From the NCBI GenBank assembly GCA_018653085.1, contig JABIAY010000016.1, positions 1 to 64,000 on the forward strand: 64,000 nt of DNA. The letters are read 5' to 3'. Source of the DNA: Nitrospina sp. (GTDB lineage: Bacteria > Nitrospinota > Nitrospinia > Nitrospinales > VA-1). The notes under the pieces were generated by a model. That model saw only the letters and a program-made list of their open reading frames with translations. It did no database searches and was not told the DNA's origin. How positions within the stretch are numbered: position 1 is the stretch's first letter; every line of letters starts with the position of its first letter. Of the stretch, positions 34,459-64,000 are shown piece after piece. Position numbers and translations under genes: made by a program.

Positions 34459-34596
34459 ATTTATATTCAGGAGAAGGTTTCTTCACACTTGTTTGCCGAG
34501 ACACCCTAAGATGGGGAAAATCAAGAACAATCGTGGTATTTGTAGTTAGATATTTTAAAGCAAAGAAAACTTTGATTTGCCGAGGAAAGGATAAAC

Positions 34597-34612: not shown

Positions 34613-34644
34613 ATTTTGTAACTTCGCGTTCCCGATAAAACCAT

Positions 34645-35259: not shown

Positions 35260-35298
35260 GGCATCTTCCTCCTGATACTGGTTTATAGTTGAACGGGA

Positions 35299-35922: not shown

Positions 35923-35924
35923 TA

Positions 35925-37151: not shown

Positions 37152-37160
37152 CGTCAATGA

Positions 37161-40250: not shown

Positions 40251-41959
40251 GCAAAGGTCACCCGATTTAATTCATCAACAGTAGTATACCCACCCAGGAC
40301 TTTGGAAATACCGTCTTCACGTAACGATTTCATATCCTGTGTTTCGCGGGCTCTTTCGCGAATGCTCATTGGGGCCGCCTTTTGCAGAACAAGTTCCCGA
40401 AGATCGTCGGTGATAACCAACACTTCAAAAATTCCCATTCGCCCTGAATACCCGCTCTTCTTGCAGGCTTTACATCCTTCTCCGTGATATAGCGTAACTG
40501 AGGAAGGTGGGTTCCCACCTGGAAAAAGAACGCTCCGTTCTTTCTCGGTAGCTTCATGCTGAACCTTGCATTGCTTGCAGATTTTACGAACCAGCCTTTG
40601 GGCCAATACACCCACAATTGAAGAGGCCAGCAAAAATGGCTCGACTTTTAAATCAGAAAGCCGAGATAACGCGCCAGGCGTATCATTGGTATGCAGGGTG
40701 CTCAACACCAGATGACCGGTCAGGGCCGCCTGGATGGCAATCTCCGCCGTCTCCGTATCGCGGATTTCACCCACCATGATAATATCCGGATCCTGACGCA
40801 TTAACGAACGCAGGCCTGTTGCAAAAGTTATATTCGCTTTTGGGTTGACCTGCGTCTGGCGAATTCCTTCCAGTCGGTATTCCACCGGGTCTTCAATAGT
40901 CTTGATGTTTCTCGATGGTGAATTCACTTTTGCCAGAGAACCATATAGGGTCGTTGTTTTTCCGCTACCTGTAGGCCCCGTTACCAGAATAACTCCATAG
41001 GGCTTATCAAGCAGTTCATTATATTTTTTCAAAGCCGCGCCCATCAGGCCGGAAGCCTCAAGGTCCACCATCAGTTTGCTCTTATCAAGAATACGAAGCA
41101 CCATGTTTTCACCATAAATGGTGGGGCAGGTGGAAACACGAAGCTCAATTTCTTTCGGACCCAGCTTTGCCGAAAAACCCCCATCCTGCGGCGATCGGGT
41201 TTCAGCAATATCCATGTTCGACAACACCTTGATCCGGGAAATCAGAGCCGACTCCACTGATTTGGGCGGCTGGGATGCTCCAAACAAGACTCCATCAATC
41301 CGGTAGCGAATATTCAGCCCCGTCTCGGTCGGTTCAATATGGATATCACTGGCCCCATCATCGAGAGCCTGCTTGAGAATCATTTCCACCAGCTTGGCCA
41401 CTGGCGCGTCTGCGGTATCCAGCGTTGCGGCTGTCCCTCCTCCGCCAGATACTATAGCTTGAGCTTCTTCCTTCTTCTCTTCCTGGGTTCCCAGACTTTT
41501 AACCGCCGCCGTGATGGAAGCCGCAACACCATATTCTTCCTGAATAGCCCTGTCGATATCAGATTCTGCCGCCAGTACCGTTGTTACGTCCAATCCAGTT
41601 CGAATCGTCACCTCGTCAATGGCGAAAATATTTAACGGGTCAGCCATGGCCAGCTTCAGCGAACCGTTTTTAATTTCTATCGGAATGACTCTGTGCTTCC
41701 TGGCAATCGCCTCCGGAACCTTGCGGATCGCATCCTGTGAAATCTTCACTCCCTGCATATCCAGGTAAGGGATTTTCAGTTGATCCGCCAGGCTGGTTAG
41801 AAATTTTTCTTCCGTGATAAATCCCAACTGCACCAATGCCGCTCCTAACGGAATATTTTTCTGCTTCTGCTCAGCCAGGGCCTGATGTAACTGTTCCTCT
41901 GTGATAGCCTCGGCTTTCACCAGAACATCGCCTAATTTAAGTTTTTGACGGATAGCCAT
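40232..41959 (-). CDS. pilB: type IV pilus assembly ATPase PilB
   Basis: 575 aa. MshEN-type N-terminal domain (~1-150; GDVLVKAEAITEEQLHQALAE, PYLDMQGVKI), then the GspE/PilB ATPase core: Walker A GPTGSGKTTTLYGSL, Asp box ASDIHIEPT, Walker B DPDIIMVGEIRDTETAEIA, His box LVLSTLHTND, and the zinc tetracysteine CKQC…CKAC. It powers pilin polymerisation at the inner membrane. MshEN domains bind c-di-GMP in several PilB homologues. GAGGAAA precedes the ATG. The final codons (…VPA, CCA GCG TGA) are the palindrome of a dispersed repeat. Confidence 0.96.
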   Translation of the reverse strand: MAIRQKLKLGDVLVKAEAITEEQLHQALAEQKQKNIPLGAALVQLGFITEEKFLTSLADQLKIPYLDMQGVKISQDAIRKVPEAIARKHRVIPIEIKNGSLKLAMADPLNIFAIDEVTIRTGLDVTTVLAAESDIDRAIQEEYGVAASITAAVKSLGTQEEKKEEAQAIVSGGGGTAATLDTADAPVAKLVEMILKQALDDGASDIHIEPTETGLNIRYRIDGVLFGASQPPKSVESALISRIKVLSNMDIAETRSPQDGGFSAKLGPKEIELRVSTCPTIYGENMVLRILDKSKLMVDLEASGLMGAALKKYNELLDKPYGVILVTGPTGSGKTTTLYGSLAKVNSPSRNIKTIEDPVEYRLEGIRQTQVNPKANITFATGLRSLMRQDPDIIMVGEIRDTETAEIAIQAALTGHLVLSTLHTNDTPGALSRLSDLKVEPFLLASSIVGVLAQRLVRKICKQCKVQHEATEKERSVLFPGGNPPSSVTLYHGEGCKACKKSGYSGRMGIFEVLVITDDLRELVLQKAAPMSIRERARETQDMKSLREDGISKVLGGYTTVDELNRVTFADVVPA

Positions 41960-42325: not shown

Positions 42326-43909
42326 ATGCCCGGTAGCGCACTAGCCGTATTCGCCGTCAAAGCCCCCGTAGAACCCACTGCTCCGACTCAGGACCAGATG
42401 AACGATAGTGGCTTTAAAGATTTTATAGACACCGCCGTACACAAGGTAGACGCGGCTCAAAAACCGTCCAAAGATGATTCCCCACAAAACCAGAACGATA
42501 CCCAAGCTAAAAAAACCCAACCCAAAGCCAAAACACGCACAGAGGACAACAGTCAGGAAGTCTCTGCGCCGAAAGAAAACAAACCCCAGTCGACTCCCGA
42601 AACCGAGATCAAAGATTCATCGGTTGAAAATACTGTGACCAAAGATTCACTGATAGAAGACACAAAAATTCTGGCGGCTCAATTACAAGAGCTGGGTATC
42701 AACCAAGCCCAGTTTGAGTCTTTGCTGGATCTGCTCGGTTTGAATGGCGATGCGGATCTGGATACCTTGCTCCAGTCGCTGACCCAGGCTTTAAATTTAA
42801 ACCAGAACAGCTCAGGTGATGGAACCAATCCATCGGAGCTGATAGCAAGAATTCAGCAGAATCAAGGAGAAGCGGTTAACCTTCTGAAGCAAATCGGATT
42901 GTCGGACACAGAAGCAAAAAACTTCTTGAATCATTTACAATCCCTGCAAAACGCTTCCGCTCAAAAAGGACTCGATAAAAACATCGACCTTCAGGCTAAA
43001 TTAGACTCCCAAACCAATCGGTCTGATGAAACGAGCGCGAAAAATTCTGATCTTGATAATAACCAGACTGAAAGTGATGAGGGACCGGATTTCTTAACCC
43101 AGTTAAAAAATACCGTGAAACCAAAAGACACGGCTGAGAAAACGGATATCGCAAAAGGAACAGAAAAAACCGTGCGTTCCGCCTCAGCAGAAAAACTCAC
43201 CGAAACTACAAAACAAAATGAAGCCCCAAGGATTACCACACAGGAACCGGTGAACGAAAAGGGTGGCCAAACCTCCAATCTCAGCGAATTACTGAGCGAT
43301 AAAAACGCCCAGGCAAATATCCTCCAAACAGAAAGTTTTGCCGATGGCAAAGGCTTTAAAGGTCTGGAAACTACCAAGACAGGTCCCGACCTGCAAACTC
43401 AATCTCCAACCGTCACCGCCAACACTGCTGTAAAAGCGGTGGAGTCGAGCAAACCAATTTTACCTGAGAACCTGTTGGCCCGCGGAGCTACGGAAGCAAA
43501 AATTATCAACCAGATTGCCAACAAGATGACCGTTCGCACCAGTGGGGCGCAGAATGAGGTCCAAATCAGGCTGGACCCCCCTTCTCTGGGAACGGTAAGA
43601 ATGAAAATCATCACCTCCGGAGAAACGGTAAGAACCGTAATTGTGGCAGAAAATCCAGCTGTAAAGCAGGTCATTGAAAACAACTTTAACCAGTTGCGTG
43701 ATGCTATGGGCGAACAGGGTCTAAAGCTGGACAGCTTCACCGTTACGGTTGGCGGAGAATCGGGCCATCAAAACCCATCGGGGGAGTCTTTGGATGAAGA
43801 AAATAACTCTTCGTTGTTTGAGCAAACAGCTAACGCAGACGAAAACTCGGAGACCGCGCCGGTTTCCTTATTTTTTGGAGACAATCAATCCATTAGCGTC
43901 ATTGCTTAA
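42326..43909 (+). CDS. fliK: flagellar hook-length control protein
   Basis: 527 aa. Long polar, Gln/Asn/Lys/Thr-rich N-terminal region (~1-400), low in complexity as usual in FliK, which is exported and measures hook length. The conserved C-terminal Flg_hook domain (~400-495) has EVQIRLDPPSLGTVRMKI, NNFNQLRDAMGEQGLKLDSF. It is the first gene after a sigma-54 promoter and stands 33 bases before flgD. No obvious Shine-Dalgarno site precedes the ATG. Confidence 0.92.
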   Translation: MPGSALAVFAVKAPVEPTAPTQDQMNDSGFKDFIDTAVHKVDAAQKPSKDDSPQNQNDTQAKKTQPKAKTRTEDNSQEVSAPKENKPQSTPETEIKDSSVENTVTKDSLIEDTKILAAQLQELGINQAQFESLLDLLGLNGDADLDTLLQSLTQALNLNQNSSGDGTNPSELIARIQQNQGEAVNLLKQIGLSDTEAKNFLNHLQSLQNASAQKGLDKNIDLQAKLDSQTNRSDETSAKNSDLDNNQTESDEGPDFLTQLKNTVKPKDTAEKTDIAKGTEKTVRSASAEKLTETTKQNEAPRITTQEPVNEKGGQTSNLSELLSDKNAQANILQTESFADGKGFKGLETTKTGPDLQTQSPTVTANTAVKAVESSKPILPENLLARGATEAKIINQIANKMTVRTSGAQNEVQIRLDPPSLGTVRMKIITSGETVRTVIVAENPAVKQVIENNFNQLRDAMGEQGLKLDSFTVTVGGESGHQNPSGESLDEENNSSLFEQTANADENSETAPVSLFFGDNQSISVIA

Positions 43910-43942
43910 TGAATTTTTATAATCATTTTTCAGGACAATAAT

Positions 43943-44599
43943 ATGCCAATCATCAATCCGACTTCACCGACTACTACAGGAGGCATCGCCGCTACCGGGG
44001 ACAGTTCTCTGGGAAAAGACGACTTCCTGCAAATCCTTGTGGCGCAATTGCAGGCCCAGGATCCACTTGCCCCCATGGAAGGCCAGGAATTCGCCTCTCA
44101 ACTGGCACAGTTCAGTAGTCTTGAGCAATTGACCAACGTGAACGATAATCTGGAAGCCAGCCAGGCTTTTGATGTCGCGATGAGCAATAACTCGGCCATT
44201 GCCCTGATTGGTAAAAACGTGGATGCCCCTGGCAATGCAGTCGACTTGAAATCCGGCGAGGTAGAGACCTTGAGCTTTTCGCTCGATGGTGACGCCGCCG
44301 ATGTAAGCATCGATATTTTTAACAGTACCGGAGCCATAGTCTCCACCATCGACCTTGGTGCGCAAACCAAAGGACTTCGTGAATATGTATGGAATGGCAC
44401 GGATTCTTCCGGCGCATTGCTTCCTGCCGGCAACTATACTTTCAATGTCACGGCTTCAGATTCTGTGGGCAATTTCGTGCCGACGGAAACATTCGCCGCC
44501 GGCCTGGTAACCGATGTCATCTTTGAAGGCGGGCAGGCCTATGCCATTGTTAATGGACAAAAACTCGCTGTAAACGAAATTTCAAAAGTAAGCCTTTAA
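43943..44599 (+). CDS. flgD: flagellar hook assembly/capping protein
   Basis: 218 aa. N-terminal FlgD motif GKDDFLQILVAQLQAQDPLAPMEGQEFASQLAQFS (quoted by its ends LGKDDFLQIL and EFASQLAQFSSLEQL). The FLIPA/Ig-like part has YVWNGTDSSGALLPAGNYTF, as in the FlgD beta domain. It caps the growing hook and is needed for FlgE assembly. AGGA precedes the ATG. fliK-flgD-flgE is a common order. Confidence 0.96.
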   Translation: MPIINPTSPTTTGGIAATGDSSLGKDDFLQILVAQLQAQDPLAPMEGQEFASQLAQFSSLEQLTNVNDNLEASQAFDVAMSNNSAIALIGKNVDAPGNAVDLKSGEVETLSFSLDGDAADVSIDIFNSTGAIVSTIDLGAQTKGLREYVWNGTDSSGALLPAGNYTFNVTASDSVGNFVPTETFAAGLVTDVIFEGGQAYAIVNGQKLAVNEISKVSL

Positions 44600-44629
44600 T
44601 TAAGCTATAACGTAAAAAGGAGATCAGTC

Positions 44630-45856
44630 ATGGGTTTAATCAGTTCATTATTTACCGGGGTCAGCGGCCTGAGAGGAAATGCCGAGGCCATGGGAGTCAT
44701 TGGTGACAATATTTCCAATGTCAATACAGTAGGCTTTAAAGGCAGTAAAGCCGTATTCAGTGACATTTTCAGCACCATTCTCTCCAACGGATCTACAACC
44801 AGCCAGTTGGGCCGCGGCTCGCAATTGCAGGGAACCATTCAGGAATTCAGCCAGGGTTCGTTTGAGTCTTCCTCAAATGCTCTCGATCTGGCTCTTGACG
44901 GTTCCGGTTTCTTTGTGGTCAACAACGGTGCTGGGAACTTTTATACTCGCGCCGGTCAATTCAGATTAAATGATGACGGATTGGTCCAGGCCATCACTGG
45001 TGAAATTTTACAGGGTTCGTCAATTTCCAATGGTGTGGTTAGCACTTCCACTACAGATATTGATCTGGCGGGAGTGCAGTCCTCCCCGCAAGCCACCACC
45101 ACGTTTACGCTGGGAGCTAATCTCGATGCCTCCGCCACAGCCGCTACGACATTCACTTCACCTGTCACCACTTACAATTCGGTGGGTACCCAGATTATCG
45201 TCAGCCTTCAGTTCACCAAAGTTTCCGGTGCAAATCAATGGACTTATGCTGTCTCCCCTTCTGATGGCACTGTAACTTCAGGGGCATCCGGTACGGTCAC
45301 CTTTGACACCTCGGGGCAATTGAGTTCACCTACGACCGACCAAAGCATAGTTATCGATTTTTCTGCGGCCAGCACACCGGCCGCCACTCAAACTCTGACA
45401 TGGGATCTGGTTGACGCTTCTGGAAATACCAACGGCAAGTTGACAGGGTTCGCTGCGGCATCCAATAACAACTCTCTCGTTCAAGACGGGTTTACCACAG
45501 GTACCCTTGTTGGCCTGACAGTAGCTACCGATGGTAAAATATCCGGCTTGTTCAATAACGGACAAACGGCTGAGCTGTTCCAGGTAGCTTTGGCGGACTT
45601 TCTCGCTCCTTCGGGATTGACCCGGCAGGGTTCGAACCTGTTTGCGGAGTCTGCCGATTCCGGGCAATCGGTTTTGGGATTTGCTGAGACCGGCGGGTTC
45701 GGGTCAGTTGTCGGCCAGTCGCTGGAGCTTTCCAACGTGGACCTGGCAGAACAGTTCGTCACCATGATTCAAACCCAGCAGGCTTTTCAGGCCAGCGCAA
45801 GAATCATCACCACAACCGATGACTTACTTACGGAGGCCGTGAATCTGGTACGATAG
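44630..45856 (+). CDS. flgE: flagellar hook protein
   Basis: 408 aa. N-terminal rod/hook signature LFTGVSGLRGNAEAMGVIGD followed by NISNVNTVGFKGSK. Middle D1/D2 domains are Thr/Ser-rich. The C-terminal family signature is SNVDLAEQFVTMIQTQQAFQ and ARIITTTDDLL. Secreted through the flagellar export apparatus to build the hook. AAAAGGAG gives a strong start. A strong intrinsic terminator follows 26 bases after the stop. Confidence 0.97.
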   Translation: MGLISSLFTGVSGLRGNAEAMGVIGDNISNVNTVGFKGSKAVFSDIFSTILSNGSTTSQLGRGSQLQGTIQEFSQGSFESSSNALDLALDGSGFFVVNNGAGNFYTRAGQFRLNDDGLVQAITGEILQGSSISNGVVSTSTTDIDLAGVQSSPQATTTFTLGANLDASATAATTFTSPVTTYNSVGTQIIVSLQFTKVSGANQWTYAVSPSDGTVTSGASGTVTFDTSGQLSSPTTDQSIVIDFSAASTPAATQTLTWDLVDASGNTNGKLTGFAAASNNNSLVQDGFTTGTLVGLTVATDGKISGLFNNGQTAELFQVALADFLAPSGLTRQGSNLFAESADSGQSVLGFAETGGFGSVVGQSLELSNVDLAEQFVTMIQTQQAFQASARIITTTDDLLTEAVNLVR

Positions 45857-47921: not shown

Positions 47922-47960
47922 AAAGCCATTGCTAGTTGAGTCCAGCGTCACGCTGGTTTA
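47922..47960 (-). repeat. Dispersed palindromic repeat at the CDGSH gene end
   Basis: CCAGCG-TCA-CGCTGG (47942-47956). On the minus strand the loop is TGA and forms the stop codon of the CDGSH gene, exactly as in pilB (…CCA GCG TGA). The body continues as ACTCAACTAGCAATGGCTTT. Confidence 0.75.
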
Positions 47961-48178
47961 ATTTTTTCGTGTGACCCATCGCAGAAAGGTCTGTTCTTCG
48001 TTCTGAAGCAACCACACAATAAATAGGTTTTATTTTTATCCAGCTTCAATATTTCCGGCCCACCGCCGCCGGTCGTGTGATGCGTGGCATCACAAAACGG
48101 CCAGTGGTTGGACTGCATACAGGTGCAAACAGCAATTTCCTCAGTATCGGTTATTTTTATAGGTCCTTCTCCTGACAT
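47948..48178 (-). CDS. small CDGSH-type iron-sulfur protein with two motifs
   Basis: 76 aa with two CDGSH-type 2Fe-2S sites: CTCMQSNHWPFCDATH and CGCFRTKNRPFCDGSH. Each has the CxC…PxCD…H ligand set. Family members are electron carriers or redox/iron sensors. It lies 17 bases after the sensor kinase gene on the same strand. The final Pro-Ala-stop is encoded by the palindrome CCAGCGTGACGCTGG. Confidence 0.93.
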   Translation of the reverse strand: MSGEGPIKITDTEEIAVCTCMQSNHWPFCDATHHTTGGGGPEILKLDKNKTYLLCGCFRTKNRPFCDGSHEKIKPA

Positions 48179-48195: not shown

Positions 48196-49896
48196 TTAGT
48201 GAGAAGGCATAGGAACAGGTTTTACGCTGTCTTGATCCGGAAGAAAAACCGTGAATAAAGTTCCTTTGCCAACTGTACTTTTAACATCCATAACCCCTTT
48301 GTTTCGGTTGACGATTTGATAAACAGTCGCCAATCCTAAGCCTACCCCGTTTTTCTTGCTGGAATAAAAAGGGTCATAAATATTACTGATCTGATCGAGG
48401 GCAATGCCGCAACCTTCATCTTGAACCTCAAGAACCATACCTCGGTGATTTGCCTGGAACTCTCCGCTCTGGAAAGAAAAAACCTCCTTGAGTGTCAAGG
48501 TCAGGGTTCCCCTGGACATCGCCTCCAATGCATTGATGCACAAGTTCCACACAACCTGCTTAATTTGTTCCTCATCTCCATTCAAAATCAAATGGTCTGT
48601 CGTTCCCTCGAAAACAATCTGTTTTTTAGAGCTAATGTCCTCTTTATTTTTTAGCAGGATGATTACATCCTGAATAAGCTGGGTCAAATCTATAATAGTA
48701 TTGTTGTTCTTTTTGGGCTGAGAATAGTTGAGAAAATCGGAAAGAATGACATTAAGGCGATCCGTTTCCTTAATGACTATTTGCATCAGTTTTTTATATG
48801 AGTCTCCAAGCTTGAGACCTCTTGCCAAAACCTGAATGGAACCACTCAGTGAAGTCAGCGGGTTTCTGATTTCATGGGCCAATCCTGCCGAAAATCTTCC
48901 CACCGCCGCTAACTGCTCTGTCCTCGAAACTTTTTCCTGCATTTCTTTTACTTCAGTGAGATCTTCAAATACCAGAATGTATCCCGGCGCATCAAGGTCA
49001 GCAAGGTGGCTGATTTTAATCCGGATAAAAATGATCTTTCCATCTTTTCTTTGGTATTCCCCCTCAATTTGTTTTGGGATAACAGGTTTTTTATCTGCGG
49101 AAAACAGATTTTTCAATTCAGCCAAAGGTATCAACCGCTCAATGGGTTTCTCCAGGCTTTCTTTGGTGGAATAACCTGTGAGCGCTCTCGCGGCAGGATT
49201 GATCAGCGTGATTATGCCCTCCAGGTCGATGGTGATCAAACCATTTCCCATATTCTGTACAATGTTCCGGTTGAAAGCTCTTTGCTCTTCCAGATTGATG
49301 CTTGCGCGAACCAGTTCCTCTTTGACTATTCGCAAACGGTGTGAAAGAAAACTGCTTAAATACGCCACCGTGTAATAAGAAACAATGTTTAGAAAAATTA
49401 CATAAAAAACATAACCGCTTTCAAAAGACACCTTCGATTCCGGAAACAAATAAACCGGAGTGATAATGCCAAAATATTCCAGGTCTACCAGCACCCCATA
49501 AATGATGATAGCGCCTGATGCCGCCAGATAGGCCGCGGCCCTGGGCAGGGTGACGCTGGATGCAATGATTACAAATAAGAAAAGGAAGGAAATGGGGCTG
49601 TCAATACCCCCTGTGGTAAAGAGAATGCCTCCTACCAGGAGCAAATCGCCCGAGACCTGAAGCGAAGCGTTTTCCGTCAAGGTCAAAAATCTGAAAAGAA
49701 CGGCATAAACAAGGGACATGAAAAAGCCTGCCCCGATAGCCATGCAGAGAGGTTCTATAGGTGCGGTGATTCCCAGCCGTTCTTGAAAGGTAAGCAGGAG
49801 GCCCACAAATCCGGTCAAAAAGAAGACCCTCAAGAGCATGATTCTTCTGACTCGTTGCTCTAGTTCCTGATCCTGATTGTGGGTTTCGCGTGTCAT
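48196..49896 (-). CDS. PilS/NtrB-type sensor histidine kinase, multi-helix input
   Basis: 566 aa. About six membrane helices in the first ~190 residues without a large periplasmic loop, as in classical PilS. PAS (~205-320; NMGNGLITIDLEGIITLINP), HisKA (GRFSAGLAHEIRNPLTSLSG), HATPase_c (GDEEQIKQVVWNLCINALEA, KKNGVGLGLATVYQI). No response regulator gene is adjacent. By topology it fits PilS better than the kinase beside pilR, so cross-talk to PilR is possible. It follows pilC copy B after 36 bases. Confidence 0.92.
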   Translation of the reverse strand: MTRETHNQDQELEQRVRRIMLLRVFFLTGFVGLLLTFQERLGITAPIEPLCMAIGAGFFMSLVYAVLFRFLTLTENASLQVSGDLLLVGGILFTTGGIDSPISFLFLFVIIASSVTLPRAAAYLAASGAIIIYGVLVDLEYFGIITPVYLFPESKVSFESGYVFYVIFLNIVSYYTVAYLSSFLSHRLRIVKEELVRASINLEEQRAFNRNIVQNMGNGLITIDLEGIITLINPAARALTGYSTKESLEKPIERLIPLAELKNLFSADKKPVIPKQIEGEYQRKDGKIIFIRIKISHLADLDAPGYILVFEDLTEVKEMQEKVSRTEQLAAVGRFSAGLAHEIRNPLTSLSGSIQVLARGLKLGDSYKKLMQIVIKETDRLNVILSDFLNYSQPKKNNNTIIDLTQLIQDVIILLKNKEDISSKKQIVFEGTTDHLILNGDEEQIKQVVWNLCINALEAMSRGTLTLTLKEVFSFQSGEFQANHRGMVLEVQDEGCGIALDQISNIYDPFYSSKKNGVGLGLATVYQIVNRNKGVMDVKSTVGKGTLFTVFLPDQDSVKPVPMPSH

Positions 49897-49932: not shown

Positions 49933-51132
49933 CTAAATAGCTTCTCCCATTTTAAATATGGGTAAGTACATGGCAACTACAATGAACCCGACAATACATC
50001 CCAGAAAGACCATGAGCATGGGTTCCATCAGGGATGTTAGGCCTTCAACGGCGGCATCGACTTCTTCATCATAGAAGTCGGCGATTTTGGACAGCATTTT
50101 ATCCAAAGCACCCGAGGACTCTCCAACATCGATCATTTGAATGACCATGGGAGGAAAAACAGATTCTCGCGAAAGGGGAGCGGCAATGGTTTCACCTTCT
50201 TTGATGGCGGCAATGGTTTTGAACACGGCAATTTCCACGATTTTATTTCCCGAGGTCCGCGCGCAAATATCCAAAGCTTCGATCAAAGGCACTCCGCTTG
50301 ATATCAGGGTTCCCAGTGTCCGCGAAAATTTTGCCACCGAAACCTTTTGAATCAAAACTCCAACCACCGGGAGCTTTAAGGAAATCCGATCTATTTCAAT
50401 ATTCCCTCGTTCGGTGGCATAAACTTGTTTGAAGACGAAGATAAAAGCGACCACCCCACCTATCATGACGTACCACTGATCCCTGAAGAAGTCGCTGACA
50501 TTCATAACGATCTGTGTGGGCCCCGGCAGTTCCTGTCCTCCTCCTGCAAACACCGCGGCAAACGACGGGATAACAAAAACCATTAAAAATGCTACGACGA
50601 CAAAAGCGACCGTCATAATGGCCCCCGGATAAACCATAGCGGATTTTACTTTCTTCTTTAGTGCTTCTGCTTTTTCAATATATGCCGCCAGACGCCTGAG
50701 GATGATGTCCAGGATTCCGCCCACTTCTCCCGCTTCAACCAGGTTGCAGTAAAGCGAATCCCAAATCTTTGGAAATTTTTTCAGGGATTCCGACAGGTTG
50801 TTTCCGACTTCGATATTGCTTTTAACTTTTAAAATCGTTTCGCCAAATGTCGGGTTGTCCGACTGTTTTCCAAGAATATCCAGGCATTGGACCAGAGGAA
50901 GCCCCGCATCGACCATGGTGGAAAACTGACGGGTAAAAATAACCACATCTTTTGTGGTAATTTTATGGACTTTGGGCCCAAATAAAGCACTTTCACCACC
51001 TTTTTTCTTGATGGTAGTAGGACGGATGTTCTGCGATTTCAGTTTAGAGACCGCGGCTTTTTCATCTTCCGCTTCCACTTCCCCGGTTTTCATTTTGCCC
51101 CGGACCCGCGACTTGTAGGTAAAAGTAGGCAT
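49933..51132 (-). CDS. pilC: type IV pilus inner-membrane platform protein PilC (copy B)
   Basis: 399 aa, two T2SSF domains with membrane segments near 168-190, 222-240 and 375-395. Motifs: MPTFTYKSRVRGKMKTGEVE, VVIFTRQFSTMVDAGLPLVQ, EAGEVGGILDIILRRLA, KFSRTLGTLISSGVPLIEAL, MIDVGESSGALDKMLSKIADF. It resembles PilC of retractile type IVa pili. It lies beside the retraction ATPase genes, while copy A lies beside pilB. Confidence 0.94.
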   Translation of the reverse strand: MPTFTYKSRVRGKMKTGEVEAEDEKAAVSKLKSQNIRPTTIKKKGGESALFGPKVHKITTKDVVIFTRQFSTMVDAGLPLVQCLDILGKQSDNPTFGETILKVKSNIEVGNNLSESLKKFPKIWDSLYCNLVEAGEVGGILDIILRRLAAYIEKAEALKKKVKSAMVYPGAIMTVAFVVVAFLMVFVIPSFAAVFAGGGQELPGPTQIVMNVSDFFRDQWYVMIGGVVAFIFVFKQVYATERGNIEIDRISLKLPVVGVLIQKVSVAKFSRTLGTLISSGVPLIEALDICARTSGNKIVEIAVFKTIAAIKEGETIAAPLSRESVFPPMVIQMIDVGESSGALDKMLSKIADFYDEEVDAAVEGLTSLMEPMLMVFLGCIVGFIVVAMYLPIFKMGEAI

Positions 51133-51144
51133 AATCGGCTTGGG

Positions 51145-51570
51145 TTAATCCTGTTGATTTAAAGTGTAAGAGTTGATTTTATTTTTTGTGCTTTCAAGCT
51201 CCAGCCCAATGCGTGTCAGCAAATGGGTTGTCATCCGCAGGCGTTCCACCAATGCCAGGATAATGGGTTTCATACCGTCCTGAAGGTCATTCATTGATTT
51301 ATCAAAAAATTCCTTATAGATCACGCCAACTGTCACATCGCCTATGGCGGTTATATTGGCACTGCGCACGGTTTCTGAGATCAAGCCCATCTCCCCGAAA
51401 ACTTCTCCCTCCGTGAGAGTTCCTACGGCTACGATTTTTTTATCAATTTTCTTGGTAACGCGAACTTTGCCTTTGAGAATTACGTAGGCATTATTACTCA
51501 TAATCCCTTCGGTGACGATGACATCGCCATCGCCAAAATGTTGGTGAATTGGAGTGTCTTGCAAGCTCAT
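51145..51570 (-). CDS. cyclic-nucleotide-binding domain protein (no DNA-binding domain)
   Basis: 141 aa. A single cNMP-binding beta-roll (DGDVIVTEGIMSNNAYVILKG, GEVFGEMGLISETVRSANITA) with the phosphate-binding-cassette place reading GEMGLISETVRSANI, close to the FGEMALL…RSA consensus. A helical C-terminus follows and no HTH. It overlaps the zinc-ribbon gene by four bases and stands 12 bases before pilC copy B. It may pass a nucleotide signal to the retraction machinery; that is inference. Confidence 0.9.
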   Translation of the reverse strand: MSLQDTPIHQHFGDGDVIVTEGIMSNNAYVILKGKVRVTKKIDKKIVAVGTLTEGEVFGEMGLISETVRSANITAIGDVTVGVIYKEFFDKSMNDLQDGMKPIILALVERLRMTTHLLTRIGLELESTKNKINSYTLNQQD

Positions 51571-52274
51571 GATTTCCCCGCAGAGTGAAGGGTTTCTTTG
51601 AACACCTTATAAAAAATTTCATTTTCGGAAATTGATTTTTTTAACACATCTTCCAGCTTACCTATGTCGCTTTCGTTGATCACAACATTGACACTTTTTT
51701 GGAAAGCTTGCATGTTTTTGAGCGTCTTAAAATTCTTACCCATCAACGCGACAAAAATATTCCTGCGGGTCACCATGGGCATTTCGGTCAGGACTTTGTA
51801 AACAGGGTTAGTACTCAGATCCTTGTTTCCATAGTTTTCATGCAGGGCAATAAAATGGAAGTGGGTAAACTTCATTTTATGAATTGCGTGTTCCGGCGAT
51901 TTTGCGTATTGAATTTTATAATCCCTGCTTTCCAGCGCCTGAGTCCATGCAGATTGATTGGTTTCGTCTAATATCAGTGCCAACTGGTCGTTTTCATCAT
52001 AGATAACCAGGTCGTCATCATCTTCAAATTCTTCCTGATTCATGACCATACCCGCCGTATCCAAGGCCTCTTCTTCTTGTTTGGGTGGTGCGGCTGGCGC
52101 AGGGGGTGTGGCCGGTGCAGGGGGTGTCGCCGAATCCTGGGTTTTCTTCAGGTGCTGATCTACCTTGATTTTGTTTTTACAGCCCGGACAGGTGACAGCG
52201 AAAGCCTGGTCCTTCGGCAGTTTCTCATCCGGAATATTCATCGACCGCTTGCACGCATCACACGTAACTTGCAT
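51567..52274 (-). CDS. zinc-ribbon protein with Pro-rich linker and receiver-like C-terminal domain
   Basis: 235 aa. N-terminal MJ0042-type zinc ribbon: CDACKRSMNIPDEKL…CPGCKNKI (two CxxC). A Pro/Ala linker (TPPAPATPPAPAAPPK) and an acidic stretch follow. Then comes a ~130-residue domain (NDQLALILDETNQSAWTQAL, YKIQYAKSPEHAIHKM, NIFVALMGKNFKTLKNMQAF) that reads like a response-regulator receiver fold without the phospho-Asp and Lys signature. I assign no function. Its place between the PilT paralog and the cNMP protein suggests an adaptor for the pilus motor. Confidence 0.8.
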   Translation of the reverse strand: MQVTCDACKRSMNIPDEKLPKDQAFAVTCPGCKNKIKVDQHLKKTQDSATPPAPATPPAPAAPPKQEEEALDTAGMVMNQEEFEDDDDLVIYDENDQLALILDETNQSAWTQALESRDYKIQYAKSPEHAIHKMKFTHFHFIALHENYGNKDLSTNPVYKVLTEMPMVTRRNIFVALMGKNFKTLKNMQAFQKSVNVVINESDIGKLEDVLKKSISENEIFYKVFKETLHSAGKS

Positions 52275-52290
52275 CTTGATTTACCCTTTC

Positions 52291-53463
52291 TTATTTTTGA
52301 ACCTGAGCCCCATACTCATCGTCCATGTTCAACTCGTCAATATCTGTAGTCTTTTCTCCCTTGGCCGATTTGAGGTTGTCAATACCCCGACCTACCACAG
52401 CCTTGCGGGAAGCATATGCGAGAGCAGTTTCTTCTGTGACGAGACCTTCCTGATACAATTTCAGTATATGCTGATCGAAGGTCCACATGCCGTATGCATC
52501 GCCGTTGGTAATAATTTCGTAATAGGTTTTATCTTCTGTCTCACCATTAATAATAGTGTCTTTTACCCGCAGATTGGAAGTCATGATTTCAAGCAACGCA
52601 ACCCGACCCCCGCCTACTTTCGGAAGCAGACGCTGACAAATAATATAGCGAATGGTGTCTGCCAGACGTATGCGTATCTGTTGCTCCTCTTCCTGGGAAA
52701 ACATGCCCACGATGCGGTTGATGGTTTGCCCGGCATCGACTGTATGCAAGGTACTCATGACAAGATGACCGGTTTCCGCCGCACTAAGGCCGATCTCTAC
52801 CGTTTCCCGGTCACGCATTTCCCCAACCAGAATAACCTTCGGTGCCTGGCGAAGGGCCGCCCGGAGTCCGCTGGAAAACGCATCATAATCGTTCCCTAAT
52901 TCTCGCTGGTTAAAGGTGGCTTTTTTATGGGGATGCACAAATTCCACAGGATCTTCCAGGGTGATGATGTGCATGGATTTTTCTTCGTTCATTTTATTCA
53001 ACAACGCCGCAAGCGTGGTCGACTTACCACTTCCGGTCGCCCCTGTAACCAGGATAAGGCCGTTTTTTTCTTCGGCGGCTTTGGCAAACTGAGCCGGAAG
53101 TTTTAAGTCCTCAATGGACGGTATTCGTGTCTCCAGTTTTCTCAATACGACGGTATAGTTTCCGCGCTGTGAAAATATATTCACGCGAAACCGGGCCTTA
53201 CCCACTAGAAAATAGGAGCAGTCGCAGGAACCCTGCTGGATTAAAATTTCTGTCAGTCTCCTATCCGAGTTGATCAGGTTCAGGGCAAATATTTCTGCCT
53301 GAAACGGAGTGAGCTCCTCGATAGGGGGATCAATGGGAACCGCTGTCAATTCCCCGGACGACTCCACCTGGCAGGCTTTGCCAACTGTGATGTTGAGATC
53401 GGAAATATTTCCGAACGCTTCCAGCATGGTGGTTAGAATATGATCGATTTCTGCTTTTCTCAT
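52291..53463 (-). CDS. PilT/PilU-type pilus retraction ATPase (second copy)
   Basis: 390 aa. GspE-type ATPase with Walker A GATGSGKSTTLAALL, Asp box ITLEDPVEFVH, Walker B KVILVGEMRDRETVEIG and His box LVMSTLHTVDAGQTINR. The N-terminal domain differs from PilT (SDLNITVGKACQVES instead of SDLHL). The C-terminal tail beyond ~350 is acidic and longer, as in PilU-like paralogs. It follows pilT after 7 bases. Probably an accessory motor. Confidence 0.92.
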   Translation of the reverse strand: MRKAEIDHILTTMLEAFGNISDLNITVGKACQVESSGELTAVPIDPPIEELTPFQAEIFALNLINSDRRLTEILIQQGSCDCSYFLVGKARFRVNIFSQRGNYTVVLRKLETRIPSIEDLKLPAQFAKAAEEKNGLILVTGATGSGKSTTLAALLNKMNEEKSMHIITLEDPVEFVHPHKKATFNQRELGNDYDAFSSGLRAALRQAPKVILVGEMRDRETVEIGLSAAETGHLVMSTLHTVDAGQTINRIVGMFSQEEEQQIRIRLADTIRYIICQRLLPKVGGGRVALLEIMTSNLRVKDTIINGETEDKTYYEIITNGDAYGMWTFDQHILKLYQEGLVTEETALAYASRKAVVGRGIDNLKSAKGEKTTDIDELNMDDEYGAQVQK

Positions 53464-53470
53464 AGGTCAC

Positions 53471-54544
53471 TCATAAAAATTCGGGTGGTGTACTTAGGAA
53501 CTGGACAAACCGCTCCTTAACAATCGCCTTGTCATAGGCATCTTCCGGGCTGACTTTTTTCGCTTCCAGAGCTACGAGAATGGCATCGTCCAAGGACTGC
53601 ATGCCATATTTTTTCCCCGTCTGGATCGCCGAAGGAATTTGAAAGGTCTTGCCCTCGCGAATCAAGTTGGAAACCGCTGGGGTCACTACCAGGACTTCCA
53701 GCACTGCCATTCTTCCTTTTTTATCGATACGTTTGAACAGGTTCTGAGCTATTACGCCTTTTAAAGATTCAGAAAGTGTGGTGCGAATTTGCGACTGCTG
53801 GTGCGCCGGGAACACATCGATTATTCGGTCAACAGTTTTTGCCGCACTCTGGGTATGAAGGGTGCCAAAAACCAAATGGCCTGTGGAAGCGGCTTCCAAA
53901 GCCAGCTCAATGGTTTCCAGGTCCCGCATTTCACCAACAAGTATGATATCCGGATCTTCCCGCAAAGCACCGCGCAGGGCAGATTTGAACCCTTTGGTGT
54001 GCACCCCTACTTCCCGGTGATTCACAATACAGCTTTGGCTTTTGTGAACAAATTCAACCGGGTCTTCGACGGTAATAATATGGCTCTTCTTGTTTCTGTT
54101 GACGTAGTCCATCATGGCGGCAAGTGTTGTGGATTTGCCGCTTCCCGTAGGCCCGGTGACCAGGACCATTCCCTTATGCAACATAGAAAGTTTGGTGATG
54201 ACTTTTGGAAGCCCCAGTTGCTCAGCAGTCAGAATTGTGCTCGGAATTTCCCTGAAAACGGCTCCCACACCCCATTTCTGCTGAAAATAATTCGCTCGAT
54301 AACGAGCCAGGTTGGGAATTTCATAGGCAAAATCCACATCACCGGTTTCTTCAAAAACCTTGATTTTATTTTCCGGGGCAATTTCATACAACATGGCTTT
54401 CAGTTCATCATTCTCCAGCGCTTTGTATTTGACCCGTTCCATGTCCCCATGGACTCTGAGAATGGGCTGCGAACCCGAAATCAAATGAAGATCTGAAGCT
54501 CCCTGCTCATTCATCAACTTGAAAAAGGCATCAATTTTAGCCAC
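53471..54544 (-). CDS. pilT: type IV pilus retraction ATPase PilT
   Basis: 357 aa from GTG (MAKIDAFFKLMNEQGASDLHL). Walker A GPTGSGKSTTLAAMMDYVN, Asp box VEDPVEFVHKS, Walker B DIILVGEMRDLETIELALEA, His box LVFGTLHTQSAAKTVDRIID, and the PilT C-terminal region VSNLIREGKTFQIPSAIQ (AIRNLIRE-like). It drives pilus disassembly and twitching. The GTG is three bases from the upstream stop, so translation is probably coupled to the RodZ-like gene. Confidence 0.95.
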   Translation of the reverse strand: MAKIDAFFKLMNEQGASDLHLISGSQPILRVHGDMERVKYKALENDELKAMLYEIAPENKIKVFEETGDVDFAYEIPNLARYRANYFQQKWGVGAVFREIPSTILTAEQLGLPKVITKLSMLHKGMVLVTGPTGSGKSTTLAAMMDYVNRNKKSHIITVEDPVEFVHKSQSCIVNHREVGVHTKGFKSALRGALREDPDIILVGEMRDLETIELALEAASTGHLVFGTLHTQSAAKTVDRIIDVFPAHQQSQIRTTLSESLKGVIAQNLFKRIDKKGRMAVLEVLVVTPAVSNLIREGKTFQIPSAIQTGKKYGMQSLDDAILVALEAKKVSPEDAYDKAIVKERFVQFLSTPPEFL

Positions 54545-54547: not shown

Positions 54548-55480
54548 TCACTCTACCAGTTTAGAGTTAATAAAAAAGTCTTTAACTACCCTGTCTTCAC
54601 TCTCCGGCAAAACCAGGACCTCGCCGTTTAAAAATAATTCCACTCCGGTTTTATTACCTACCGTCAACCGAATCGTTTCATCACCCCAGAAAGTCTTCGC
54701 GGTTCCAGCCGGGAGAATAAAATCTTCTTCCCTGGAGTTATCGATGGTCATATTAAACCACGAAATTTCTTTTGCATGAATCGAAAGCTTTAAAGGTTTT
54801 TCGATGTCTGCGGAATTTTGAGCATCCCAATCAGACATCGAAGCACCTGGAGTCATCAATTCGACCGGTTCTAGAAGAGATGAGGCTTGTTCCTCGTTCA
54901 CATCTTCGGTAGGTTGATCGGACGAACTGATTGGATTCGAAAGTTCCGGAGCCTCCAGATCAGCAGGGCTCTCTTCCTGAGTGCCCATATTTTCTTCCAC
55001 AAGCGGTTCCTCAAGCAAATCGCTCATTAAAGGCTCCGGATCGACTACCTTAGCCTGCGTTTGAAGAGAGGAAGCTTTTTTTTCCTCCAGTTTGCCTGAA
55101 GAGTCTTCCGTCCCGCTTTTCATCAGGAATCCCACTCCAAACAAAAGACCGGCAACCACCAAAACTGACAAGCCATATGCCAAGAGGGTTTTAGGTTGTA
55201 TGCTGAATGAAGATGCTTCCTGAGGTAAATTTTTCTGATCTCTGAGCTCCGCAGATTCTTTATAGATATTGAGCATTTCCTCAACATCCGAACCAATGGT
55301 GTTGGCATAGGAGCGAATATACCCCTTAATAAAAACCTCGCCCGGGAGTTCGTCAAAGGAGTTCTCTTCAAGAGCCCTGAGAAAACGAATATGAATTTTG
55401 GTGGTCCCGGAAATTTCTTCCAGAGGCACCCCTCTTAATTCGCGTTCGTGCTTTAAATAAGAACCAAAATTTTCAACCAT
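54548..55480 (-). CDS. RodZ-like protein (HTH, one membrane helix, C-terminal DUF4115)
   Basis: 310 aa from ATG (MVENFGSYLKHERELRGV). Cytoplasmic HTH_25 domain (~1-90; LEEISGTTKIHIRFLRALEE, LPGEVFIKGYIRSYA), one membrane helix (~110-135), an acidic Ser/Glu/Pro-rich linker, and a DUF4115 beta domain (ISWFNMTIDNSREEDFILPA, GVELFLNGEVL). RodZ links MreB to the wall synthesis machinery; RodZ-like proteins in pilus operons are less studied. GGAGGT lies 13 bases from the ATG. It is followed by pilT with a three-base gap. Confidence 0.88.
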   Translation of the reverse strand: MVENFGSYLKHERELRGVPLEEISGTTKIHIRFLRALEENSFDELPGEVFIKGYIRSYANTIGSDVEEMLNIYKESAELRDQKNLPQEASSFSIQPKTLLAYGLSVLVVAGLLFGVGFLMKSGTEDSSGKLEEKKASSLQTQAKVVDPEPLMSDLLEEPLVEENMGTQEESPADLEAPELSNPISSSDQPTEDVNEEQASSLLEPVELMTPGASMSDWDAQNSADIEKPLKLSIHAKEISWFNMTIDNSREEDFILPAGTAKTFWGDETIRLTVGNKTGVELFLNGEVLVLPESEDRVVKDFFINSKLVE

Positions 55481-55527
55481 AATTTTGACGACCACCTCCG
55501 CCGCAAACGGACGGGATATTCTGGGGT

Positions 55528-56322
55528 TTAATTTGGACTAACCAACCGCATATATTCCTTGGATTTTTTTGCCAACTCCCCTCTGGGGGAATAAAGCATT
55601 ACTTTTTGAAAATGCTTCAGAGCCTGTTCTTTTTTTTCTTCCCTTAAATATAGTTGCGCCAACTCAAAATGGGCTTGAGAAAAACGCGGCCTGATAGACA
55701 GGGCCTTCTGCAAAGACTTCATAGCTTGATCAAAACGCTCCTGATTGATATAAGCCAGGGCCAGGTTAAGCCGAATTCCTGCATTATCTTTTATTTCAAG
55801 GGCTTTTTTCCACTCGATTTCCGCTTCATCCTTTTTTCCCAGGTTATAGAAGCACAGCGCAACCCAATTATAAACCTGTTGGGGTTGTAGGGTTCCGGGT
55901 CGTGCAAGGTCTTCCCGAAAATATCGGATCGCCTTTTGCCAGTGCCCCTGTTGCATGTAGAGCAAACCCAACTGCCGATAGGGCTCCTTGAAGTCCTTGT
56001 TTAGTTTTACACTTGTTAAGTACTCCTGCTCTGCTCTTTCGAGAATCCCCTTGGAAAAATAAGCCTGTCCCAGGAAAAAATGGAAATTAGGTTCTGCGGG
56101 ATCCAGCTCGATGGCTTCTTTTAGCAAGGCCACCATTTTATCCGTCTGGTTCAATGAACCTGCCTGACGGGCTTCCTTGAATTTTTCTTGGGCTAGGGCT
56201 TTCTTATCATCCGGCTTGTTCAGCAGGTCAGTCGTGGCGCAACCTGTGGAAAACACAAATGCCAGCGAACAAATTACAGCCCACTTTTTAGGTATCGGGA
56301 CCCTGGCCGTCAAAAAGCTCAT
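55528..56322 (-). CDS. pilF: PilF/PilW-like TPR lipoprotein
   Basis: 264 aa. Signal peptide with lipobox FSTGC (lipid-anchored). About six TPR repeats follow (FHFFLGQAYFSKGILERAEQ, EPYRQLGLLYMQQGHWQKAI, AHFELAQLYLREEKKEQALK). Pilotins of this type help PilQ secretin assembly in the outer membrane. It is first in the minus-strand pilus block and has a near-consensus promoter 37-45 bases upstream. No Shine-Dalgarno site is seen before the ATG. The symbol is by similarity of architecture. Confidence 0.82.
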   Translation of the reverse strand: MSFLTARVPIPKKWAVICSLAFVFSTGCATTDLLNKPDDKKALAQEKFKEARQAGSLNQTDKMVALLKEAIELDPAEPNFHFFLGQAYFSKGILERAEQEYLTSVKLNKDFKEPYRQLGLLYMQQGHWQKAIRYFREDLARPGTLQPQQVYNWVALCFYNLGKKDEAEIEWKKALEIKDNAGIRLNLALAYINQERFDQAMKSLQKALSIRPRFSQAHFELAQLYLREEKKEQALKHFQKVMLYSPRGELAKKSKEYMRLVSPN

Positions 56323-56841: not shown

Positions 56842-57456
56842 ATGAAAACCAAGCTGACAAAGCGATTTTCGAAGTTAGTCGCAATTTTAGCTTTTCTGGC
56901 CATTTTGGCAGGAAACGCTTATGCGGTTACTAATAGTGAGTCTGTTGTATCTCCTTACTGGCAGTCGGACTCATCATCTTATACCTTCATTGCAGTGAGT
57001 CACACCTCACTTTCCGGTATGGCCTCACAGATTGGTTTAACAGTAAATGCCATCACTAGCGACCAAAGCGCATTTTCTACTGCGGTAACTTTTACAATTG
57101 AGTCTGGAACAACAACGAGAATATTTATCGTTAGAACCAACCAATCTACCATCAATTCGACCAGTATTTCGTCTGCACAGTTCATAGTTGGAACCACCAA
57201 TTTCGAGCATGGGCATATTCGTGTCGATCCGATTTCAAGTAACCCAGAGACTATTAATTCTGCAACCGGCAACTTGGGCTTGACGGGCGGCGGTTACAGG
57301 GATATCACGATGCTGTCTTTCTGGGGTACGGTGGTTGTAGAAACAAATACCACGGGTTTCGCCATGGAATTTATTGGCGATATGCATGATTCCGCCGCAC
57401 CACCGAACTTTGACGGTTCGCAAGGAATGGATGTAGGAGGTCCTGCAGCACCGTAG
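56842..57456 (+). CDS. secreted protein of unknown family, member 1 of a pair
   Basis: 204 aa with a signal peptide cleaved near residue 28 (…LAGNAYA). The mature protein is Ser/Thr/Asn-rich and has no cysteine. It shares with the next gene the motifs SPYWQ…DSSSYTFIAVSHTSLSGMASQIG, FIVRTNQSTINS, SAQF…VRVD/RVTS-type, LSFWGTVVVE and GFAMEFIGDMHDS (each quoted in part). I recognise no domain; the pattern suggests a beta-rich extracellular fold. AGGAGA precedes the ATG, and the leader contains two hairpins. It reads divergently from the pilF-pilT block. Confidence 0.85.
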   Translation: MKTKLTKRFSKLVAILAFLAILAGNAYAVTNSESVVSPYWQSDSSSYTFIAVSHTSLSGMASQIGLTVNAITSDQSAFSTAVTFTIESGTTTRIFIVRTNQSTINSTSISSAQFIVGTTNFEHGHIRVDPISSNPETINSATGNLGLTGGGYRDITMLSFWGTVVVETNTTGFAMEFIGDMHDSAAPPNFDGSQGMDVGGPAAP

Positions 57457-57512
57457 GTTAATGTTCTAAATTTCAACCTTGAACTGGAAAAATTCATTAA
57501 GGAGAACGATCC

Positions 57513-58205
57513 ATGAAGAATATAAAACAATTAATCCTGTTTGCGCTTATTGGGATGCTTTATTTCGCCCCAACCGCCTCAGGAGAAATCACCCAGGCGG
57601 ACGATACTCGGTTTAGTGCTCGTATAGCCATTTCGCCTTATGCTCAGGCTGTACCTAATGACAGTTACACATTCATCGGTGTCAGCCATCCTTCGCTGGA
57701 TAGTGCTTTGACCCAGATCGGTGTTGTGGTAGAAGCCATTGGCATGACCACCACGACTAACAACGCCGCAGGTAGAGCAGCGGTTTTTACGGTAGATGCA
57801 GGTGAAACTCACCGGGTATTTATTGTAAACCAGAGCAATGCTACTATTAATTCCTCAAACGCATCGTTCACGGATAGCCGGACTCATCTGATACCGACCA
57901 TTGACTCTGCGCAGTTTGGTGCAGTCAGGGTCACTTCTGTGAGTGAGCGCCCACAACTGGTGGCGGGTTCCAGAGAAGTTGATGTCGGTGGTGTCAAAAA
58001 GTTCGACAATTTAGCCCAGCTCACAATCTGGGGTATCGTCTACATTGAATCCGGCGGAGCCGGTTTTGCCATGGAGTTCATCGGCGATATGCAGGATTCA
58101 ACATTGGGTGGTAATCTGTCATCTGGAGTGGGTTCCAATCTTGGTAATTCCGCCGATAGCAGTTCAAACAGTCCCCTAGCAAGACCTGCTCGTGGTATCA
58201 ACTAG
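57513..58205 (+). CDS. secreted protein of unknown family, member 2 of a pair
   Basis: 230 aa, signal peptide ending near TASG (residue 24). Colinear with the upstream protein: SYTFIGVSHPSLDSALTQIG, RVFIVNQSNATINSS, IDSAQFGAVRVTS, LTIWGIVYIE and GFAMEFIGDMQDS. It is longer in the middle and has a Ser/Gly/Asn-rich tail. TAAGGAGA gives a strong start 57 bases after member 1, and a strong terminator follows. The pair is therefore one operon. No function can be assigned. A surface or pilus-associated role is only suggested by the neighbours. Confidence 0.85.
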   Translation: MKNIKQLILFALIGMLYFAPTASGEITQADDTRFSARIAISPYAQAVPNDSYTFIGVSHPSLDSALTQIGVVVEAIGMTTTTNNAAGRAAVFTVDAGETHRVFIVNQSNATINSSNASFTDSRTHLIPTIDSAQFGAVRVTSVSERPQLVAGSREVDVGGVKKFDNLAQLTIWGIVYIESGGAGFAMEFIGDMQDSTLGGNLSSGVGSNLGNSADSSSNSPLARPARGIN

Positions 58206-63056: not shown

Positions 63057-63440
63057 TTACCCGTTAGAGGGAGGGGGAGACTTGCCCTCTTGCAGATTTT
63101 CCACCAAGGTCAGGGTAGCCCGAAGCCTTTTTGCTAAAACTTTGAGCATAGGCATAAGAGCCTGCGGGTTATGTTGCGCCAGATGGTTAAACGTCTCCTG
63201 CGTCATCACCGATATCGTGCAGTCTTCTAAAGCCAGCACAGTCGCGGAACGGGGGAGAGAGTCGATCAGGCTCATTTCTCCAAAAATATCATTCTCCTTG
63301 AGAACACCTACAACCTGTTCTTCGCCACTGCTCAATATCTTGGATACTTGTACGCTTCCCGATTCAATAATATAAGCACAGTCGCTCAACGTGCCTTCCT
63401 TAATAATTTCCTCGCCCTTTTTAAAAAATTGTGTCTTCAT
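63057..63440 (-). CDS. cyclic-nucleotide-binding domain protein (tandem copy 1)
   Basis: 127 aa, a lone cNMP-binding domain without HTH: GEEIIKEGTLSDCAYIIESG, NDIFGEMSLIDSLPRSATVLA (phosphate-binding cassette), then a helical tail with LMPMLKVLAKRLR. It is followed upstream by a related gene, so the two are tandem paralogs. Members of this type are often regulatory partners of kinases or pili. The nucleotide and partner are unknown. Third such protein in the window (see 51145-51570). Confidence 0.9.
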   Translation of the reverse strand: MKTQFFKKGEEIIKEGTLSDCAYIIESGSVQVSKILSSGEEQVVGVLKENDIFGEMSLIDSLPRSATVLALEDCTISVMTQETFNHLAQHNPQALMPMLKVLAKRLRATLTLVENLQEGKSPPPSNG

Positions 63441-63734: not shown

Positions 63735-64000
63735 TCAGACTTCTGCCGGAACAGGCTGTATCAAGGTTTTCTGGCCTTCAACCTGCTCTAAAATATTCAG
63801 GGCTTTTCTCAATCGGCTGGCAAGAACTTTAAGAATTGGCATCAGGGCCTCCGGGTTACGCTTTGATAATGAATTAAAAACCTCCGGCGTCATCACTGAT
63901 ATCGTGCAGTCTTCTAAAGCCAGCACAGTCGCGGAACGGGGAAGGCCATCGATCAGACTCATTTCTCCAAAAATATCATTCTCTTCAAGAACACCTATGA
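63735..64000 (-). CDS. cyclic-nucleotide-binding domain protein (tandem copy 2, 5' end outside window)
   Basis: The frame is open to the last base of the window. The visible ~87 residues include GVLEENDIFGEMSLIDGLPR (with SATVLALEDCTISVMT) and the helical tail LMPILKVLASRLRKAL. The core is almost identical to copy 1, and a stretch of about 50 bases (63200-63255 versus 63890-63945) is nearly unchanged even at synonymous sites, which suggests recent duplication or gene conversion. The C-terminal tail differs. Confidence 0.9.
   Translation of the reverse strand, partial: IGVLEENDIFGEMSLIDGLPRSATVLALEDCTISVMTPEVFNSLSKRNPEALMPILKVLASRLRKALNILEQVEGQKTLIQPVPAEV

Follow-up and report, generated by a model that had tools for sequence, protein, structure and literature searches.

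A conserved pilT1-pilT2-ZnRec triad in the type IV pilus retraction operon of Nitrospina and its candidate role in motor control

Results

Gene organization of the retraction operon

A 64,000-nucleotide stretch of DNA from Nitrospina sp. (GenBank assembly GCA_018653085.1, contig JABIAY010000016.1, positions 1 to 64,000; hereafter the window) was analyzed for a type IV pilus retraction operon that encodes two PilT-family ATPases (PilT1 and PilT2), the platform protein PilC, and two small proteins: one with a zinc ribbon and a pseudo-receiver (here named ZnRec) and one that is a stand-alone cyclic-nucleotide-binding domain (here named cNMP). The source genome comprises 3.16 Mb in 78 contigs. A first-pass annotation had described pilT, a pilT paralog, ZnRec, cNMP and pilC as one tight minus-strand run with a four-base overlap at the cNMP gene. 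Both observations were confirmed: all five open reading frames (ORFs) were found to be free of internal stops and separated by 7, 16, -4 and 12 nt, and the overlap was read directly as an ATGA shared by the stop codon of ZnRec and the start codon of cNMP (Table 1). The limits of the run, placed by that annotation at 49933-54544, were too narrow, as genes for PilW-like and RodZ-like proteins lie upstream and pilS and CDGSH genes downstream. The nearest NCBIfam model for PilC was that of Myxococcus PilC, with a score below its cut-off.

Conservation of the triad in three phyla

Wherever the contig sufficed, the 31 related loci from the class share the gene order pilT1-pilT2-ZnRec-cNMP-pilC-pilS, with the lipoprotein and RodZ-like genes usually preceding pilT1, and this conservation excludes a chance arrangement. 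The triad pilT1-pilT2-ZnRec was present in every Nitrospinota locus of sufficient length; cNMP stood beside it in nearly all (exception, locus L134), and the ATGA overlap of ZnRec and cNMP was retained in most Nitrospinaceae loci. By profile search, full-length ZnRec was detected in about 40 of the 57 Nitrospinota genomes that were at least 80% complete. Where ZnRec was not detected (21 genomes, 7 of them at least 90% complete), a search with PilT2 as query revealed no PilT-type ATPase, neither PilT1 nor PilT2, in 20, and the one remaining genome carried pilT1 and the start of pilT2 running off the contig end. PilM-like proteins were still present in several of the ZnRec-less genomes, and the retraction genes of Nitrospinota therefore appear to form an optional set that is lost in one piece.

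A pattern scan of GTDB, with one genome per species, yielded 160 ZnRec relatives, the best 80 of which were from Nitrospinota, Desulfobacterota and Nitrospirota. Nearly every ZnRec locus of Desulfobacterota and Nitrospirota displayed the triad order, almost never accompanied by cNMP, pilC or pilS, and outside Nitrospinota the triad was flanked by unrelated genes that differed between lineages. Of 247 Desulfobacterota genomes surveyed, 72 encode ZnRec and 80 encode PilT2; the two occur together in 70, and neither was found in 165 (Fisher p = 7.5e-48, a value that overstates independence since related sequences share ancestry). In the two genomes with ZnRec only (L199 and L278), the contig ends within a pilT2 that lies beside ZnRec. 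In eight of the ten with PilT2 only, pilT2 is directly followed by a gene for a shorter and divergent pseudo-receiver, and the apparent occurrence of PilT2 without ZnRec is therefore mostly a threshold effect. By coordinates, 62 of the 72 genomes place ZnRec immediately 3' of pilT2, and 8 genomes with an unlinked pilT2 still encode ZnRec elsewhere. Despite the shared ancestry, the genomes with unlinked genes and those with divergent pseudo-receivers speak for a functional link between ZnRec and PilT2. Of 148 Nitrospirota genomes, 24 encode ZnRec, with pilT2 directly upstream in each.

The conserved core is the triad pilT1-pilT2-ZnRec, and cNMP, pilC and pilS are Nitrospinota additions. The neighborhood survey that the first-pass annotation had proposed came out strongly in its favor, with the triad conserved, gained and lost together across three phyla. 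The suggestion of that annotation that the two small proteins look like dedicated control parts of the pilus motor was supported in part: the triad recurs in the three phyla and cNMP throughout nearly all Nitrospinota, but the natural unit is the triad, and further stand-alone cNMP proteins are encoded in the genome.

The two PilT-family ATPases

Both ATPases were assigned to the PilT/PilU family by TIGR01420 (463 bits for PilT1 and 381 bits for PilT2; cut-off of 319). The closest solved chain to PilT1 was Pseudomonas aeruginosa PilT (3jvu, 400 bits), and PilT1 retains the C-terminal NLIRE motif (AvsNLIREgKTFQ) of the canonical AIRNLIRE region. The same region of PilT2 reads RVKDTIINGETEDKTYY and departs from the canonical motif. 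The Walker A, catalytic Glu, Asp and His boxes were conserved in 73 PilT1 and 78 PilT2 sequences and invariant in the alignment (A6), and the Walker A/B, Asp and His boxes of PilT2 are intact. PilT2 proteins share a conserved C-terminal tail, GEKTTDI..L..D..Y (residues 365-381), which PilT1 lacks. Within the window the two ATPases are 38% identical and fall into separate clades; across phyla, PilT2 is 64-88% identical, and in the pairs checked PilT1 and PilT2 were each 68-78% identical to their counterparts in another phylum. Assignment of PilT2 as PilU was not favored, as by score it is no closer to PilU (9n32, 228 bits) than to PilT (5fl3, 286 bits). PilT2 resembles PilU in the placement of its gene, though not in sequence.

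ZnRec, a zinc ribbon joined to a pseudo-receiver

An AlphaFold model of ZnRec predicted a four-Cys zinc ribbon (residues 1-40), a disordered acidic/Pro linker, a pseudo-receiver (residues ~97-200) and a C-terminal helix (residues 201-231). Zn_ribbon_4 was matched by the window protein, the receiver-like part of which had no Pfam match, and weak Response_reg matches were obtained for its relatives. The predicted (beta-alpha)5 receiver fold retrieved CheY, KdpE and NtrC1 by Foldseek (probability 1.0, E of ~2e-5, target TM of ~0.7). When aligned to the receiver of the NtrC-type regulator of the window, ZnRec was found to have His145 at the position of the phospho-acceptor Asp. Among 152 relatives this site is occupied by Asn in 57, Asp in 24, Ser in 23 and His in 13, and the site of the conserved Lys after beta-5 is Asn in 136 and Lys in 1, while Arg170-Arg171 is invariant or nearly so. 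Receiver folds devoid of phosphorylation chemistry usually serve as docking surfaces. All four ribbon Cys were present in 108 of these 152 relatives, the window protein included; most Nitrospirota forms lack the ribbon, and the pseudo-receiver is thus the constant part of ZnRec. The C-terminal helix spans only 31 residues and does not form a C-terminal coiled coil of the FrzS type.

Domain DUF4388, which we take to be PATAN, was absent from the window ZnRec by Pfam analysis and was located at the N-terminus of three unlinked ZnRec relatives (L201, L204 and L234; Pfam tested in L201 and L234), the genes of which adjoin a gene for a small protein of ~100 aa. Second ZnRec paralogues devoid of the zinc ribbon were found in Desulfobacterota (L206, L212 and L216) directly beside a gene for an HD-GYP cyclic di-GMP (c-di-GMP) phosphodiesterase-like protein (Pfam DUF3391 and HD_5, tested in L206), a pairing hinting at a c-di-GMP arm of the ZnRec family.

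The stand-alone cNMP protein

The cNMP protein matched cNMP_binding (PF00027) at 64.6 bits and has a CRP-type C-helix, after which it ends at 141 aa. It has no helix-turn-helix (HTH) domain and is therefore ruled out as a CRP-type transcription factor. Residues Gly59, Glu60, Arg69, Ser70, Thr114 and Thr/Ser115 align with positions of Escherichia coli CRP that we take to be its cAMP contacts, and the six positions are kept in 32 of 32 cNMP relatives when one S-to-T and eight T-to-S variants are allowed. The nearest solved fold to that predicted for cNMP was cAMP-bound Bd1971. The genome also encodes two nucleotide cyclases of class III, scoring 89.5 and 69.7 bits, as a candidate source of cAMP. 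The protein likely binds cAMP, judged by these residues, and may dimerize.

Two more stand-alone cNMP-domain proteins, similar to each other, are encoded on the minus strand at 63057-63440 and at 63735-63998, the latter running off the window; both keep the RSA motif and not the Thr-Thr/Ser pair of CRP. In the Nitrospirota genome L251, a stand-alone cNMP gene (1073-1492, plus strand) lies divergently beside ZnRec, possibly an independent pairing of cNMP with the triad.

Other features of the window

A second type IV pilus (T4P)/type II secretion system (T2SS)-like cluster was identified at 33965-41959 (minus strand) and includes genes for PilB with an MshE-type c-di-GMP motif, a histidine kinase, an NtrC-type regulator, a GspF-type PilC and prepilin-like proteins. 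An extension-type ATPase is thus encoded nearby but apart from the retraction module. Flagellar FliK, FlgD and FlgE genes lie between the two pilus clusters (42326-45856, plus strand). Two tandem genes at 56842-58205 (plus strand) encode proteins of 204 and 230 aa that look secreted, resemble each other at the ends and match no Pfam family.

Table 1. Features of the retraction operon and its flanks in the window.
Feature	Coordinates	Strand	Basis and remarks
CDGSH iron-sulfur protein, 3' end of run	47948..48178	-	PF09360, E=5e-18; in many related loci
pilS-like histidine kinase (6TM_PilS, PAS, HisKA, HATPase)	48196..49896	-	Pfam; 3' of pilC across Nitrospinota loci
pilC, T4P/T2SS inner-membrane platform protein	49933..51132	-	T2SSF, E=7e-67
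cNMP, stand-alone cyclic-nucleotide-binding domain, 141 aa	51145..51570	-	PF00027
ATGA overlap, ZnRec stop/cNMP start	51567..51570	-	Direct sequence read
ZnRec, zinc ribbon and pseudo-receiver protein	51567..52274	-	Zn_ribbon_4, AlphaFold, Foldseek
pilT2, second PilT-family ATPase, 390 aa	52291..53463	-	TIGR01420, motif comparison, separate clade
pilT1, canonical PilT-type retraction ATPase, 357 aa, GTG start	53471..54544	-	TIGR01420
RodZ-like protein (HTH_25 and RodZ_C), 3 nt upstream of pilT1	54548..55495	-	Pfam; conserved upstream position
PilW/Tgl-like TPR lipoprotein (pilotin-type)	55528..56322	-	TIGR02521 type_IV_pilW, 100 bits, below 154-bit cut-off; conserved position

Discussion

A candidate adaptor of the second retraction ATPase

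We consider it reasonably probable that ZnRec is a dedicated, phosphorylation-independent adaptor of PilT2 and that in Nitrospinota the cNMP protein reports cAMP to ZnRec-PilT2. The operon would be a type IV pilus retraction operon built on a conserved three-gene motor module, in which PilT1 would be the ordinary retraction ATPase and PilT2 a second, accessory one. ZnRec would act as a cytoplasmic adaptor with a receiver fold that is not phosphorylatable in the usual way and may serve as a constitutive docking domain. The Arg-Arg pair and long C-terminal helix would provide the adaptor side, the PilT2-specific C-terminal tail is a candidate partner site, and the zinc ribbon, where present, may anchor an additional partner. 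In Nitrospinota, a cAMP-binding homodimer of cNMP, apparently translationally coupled to ZnRec, would be added to the module and most likely report cAMP to the ZnRec-PilT2 complex, tuning retraction. Receiver-type proteins have precedents as pilus-motor controllers in FrzS (PMC11580455) and in PixE, which is reported in PMC7690835 to bind PilB1. The replaced phosphorylation residues and CheY fold of ZnRec fit the adaptor without a phosphorylation site that the first-pass annotation had envisaged, and the residues and fold of cNMP likewise suit its proposal of a nucleotide sensor. A further-reaching version, in which ZnRec is the first member of a new class of obligate retraction-motor adaptors that work independently of phosphorylation and the Nitrospinota motor is directly gated by cAMP via a stand-alone CRP-like subunit, is offered tentatively and appears to us the less probable form.

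Several points weigh against this interpretation. In Desulfobacterota and in most Nitrospirota the triad has no cNMP gene, and cAMP input is thus not essential to the module; another stand-alone cNMP protein is encoded in the window itself (63057-63440). Assignment of the pilT1 to pilC run to one transcription unit is suggested by spacing only. The ZnRec model is of moderate global confidence (predicted TM-score of 0.60), because of the linker, and the genomes surveyed are mostly metagenome-assembled. Finally, gene content, synteny, co-occurrence and residue conservation are direct observations and the folds are AlphaFold predictions, while binding of ZnRec to PilT2, binding of cAMP, dimerization of cNMP and an effect on retraction are all inferred.

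Under one alternative, cNMP has a role separate from the motor, such as transcriptional or kinase signaling via PilS or others, and is in the operon for co-expression only. We view this as a serious contender, if somewhat doubtful. It is in keeping with the pilS gene in the same operon, the position of cNMP outside the triad beyond Nitrospinota, and the further cNMP proteins of the window; it is opposed by the lack of a DNA-binding domain, the ATGA coupling to ZnRec in most Nitrospinaceae loci, the presence of cNMP in nearly all Nitrospinota loci other than L134, and the divergent cNMP gene beside ZnRec in L251.

ZnRec may instead be a localization or assembly factor, a polarity landmark or chaperone that brings PilT2 to the pilus base as FrzS, SgmX and SopA do for PilB in Myxococcus. 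The combination of zinc ribbon and pseudo-receiver resembles polarity proteins, with a ZnRec profile (A4) matching the GltJ/AgmX zinc finger (7zok) at E=2e-4 and, weakly, a FrzS fusion at E=0.05, and polar recruitment is the mode of action of FrzS (PMC11580455). Against this stand the missing zinc ribbon of most Nitrospirota forms and a search of the source genome for an MglA-type GTPase, in which the only PF00025 match was in a 790-aa frame and no ORF of MglA size was found, by a model that detects MglA weakly; a model of an MglA GTPase with a GltJ-type zinc-ribbon adaptor was not adopted for this latter reason. A localization role for ZnRec in place of control of activity is in our judgment rather unlikely, and nothing in the sequence tells the two apart.

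That ZnRec and cNMP are unrelated signaling proteins with no motor role, kept by inertia of an old operon or by co-transfer, is very improbable: the 68-78% cross-phylum identity of PilT1 and PilT2 in the pairs checked means that the whole cluster may have been transferred together, but passive synteny is rejected by flanks that vary by lineage while the triad stays, by divergent ZnRecs that remain beside pilT2, by genomes that keep both pilT2 and ZnRec when the two are unlinked, and by the co-loss of ZnRec and PilTs in Nitrospinota.

Implications for retraction control

Regulation of type IVa pilus (T4aP) dynamics is poorly understood (PMC9815625), coordination of retraction ATPases is not fully understood (PMC12632253), and the pilus-motor regulators in the literature surveyed (PilZ/FimX, SgmX/FrzS/SopA, PilG and PixE) act on the extension ATPase PilB. 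ZnRec, which travels with the second retraction ATPase in three phyla, is a concrete candidate for retraction control, and through cNMP cAMP may reach the motor with no transcription factor involved; if the motor is gated by cAMP in this way, the target of the second messenger is the retraction machinery and not transcription. A function hypothesis is also provided for proteins that the family libraries used recognize only by the zinc ribbon. No description of the pilT1-pilT2-ZnRec-cNMP set was found in the open-access literature (subscription papers and preprints were outside the search), in agreement with the first-pass annotation, which knew of no described system with this set. The same open-access search gave no match for pilT together with MJ0042, and a paper on Geobacter PilT (PMC5065972) contains none of the terms response regulator, zinc or receiver.

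Comparison with known systems

The triad is similar to the PilT/PilU pair of gammaproteobacterial T4aP, where PilU is a second, PilT-dependent retraction ATPase (PMC6762196), in having two neighboring PilT-family ATPases, and differs in that PilT2 comes with a dedicated pseudo-receiver. The zinc ribbon of ZnRec is of the four-Cys MJ0042 type found, by the profile match to 7zok, in GltJ/AgmX; that protein, however, belongs to the gliding machinery of Myxococcus, and no MglA-size GTPase was found in this genome by the weak detection model. Similarly to CRP and Vfr, cNMP has a cyclic-nucleotide-binding domain, a C-helix and the six cAMP-contact positions, but not their HTH domain. It is closest in fold to Bd1971 of Bdellovibrio, a cAMP-gated EAL phosphodiesterase (PMC6717892) that was solved with cAMP bound and has a non-transcriptional output; by contrast, no EAL enzyme is present here and the cNMP domain stands alone in a pilus operon.

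The PATAN-CheY regulators of cyanobacteria (PixE, LsiR and PixG) are likewise receiver-type proteins aimed at a pilus motor, with PixE reported to bind PilB1 (cited in PMC7690835), and some unlinked ZnRec relatives have DUF4388 in front. The cyanobacterial proteins are described as response regulators on the extension motor, whereas the window ZnRec has no PATAN/DUF4388 domain. FrzS of Myxococcus xanthus is also a pseudo-receiver protein without phosphorylation residues that stimulates T4aP function; it has a large coiled coil and acts via SgmX on the extension ATPase PilB (PMC11580455), whereas ZnRec carries a zinc ribbon and is encoded with a retraction ATPase. The locus joins a known machine, the T4aP retraction motor, to a widely conserved candidate control part of which no description was found in the open-access literature.

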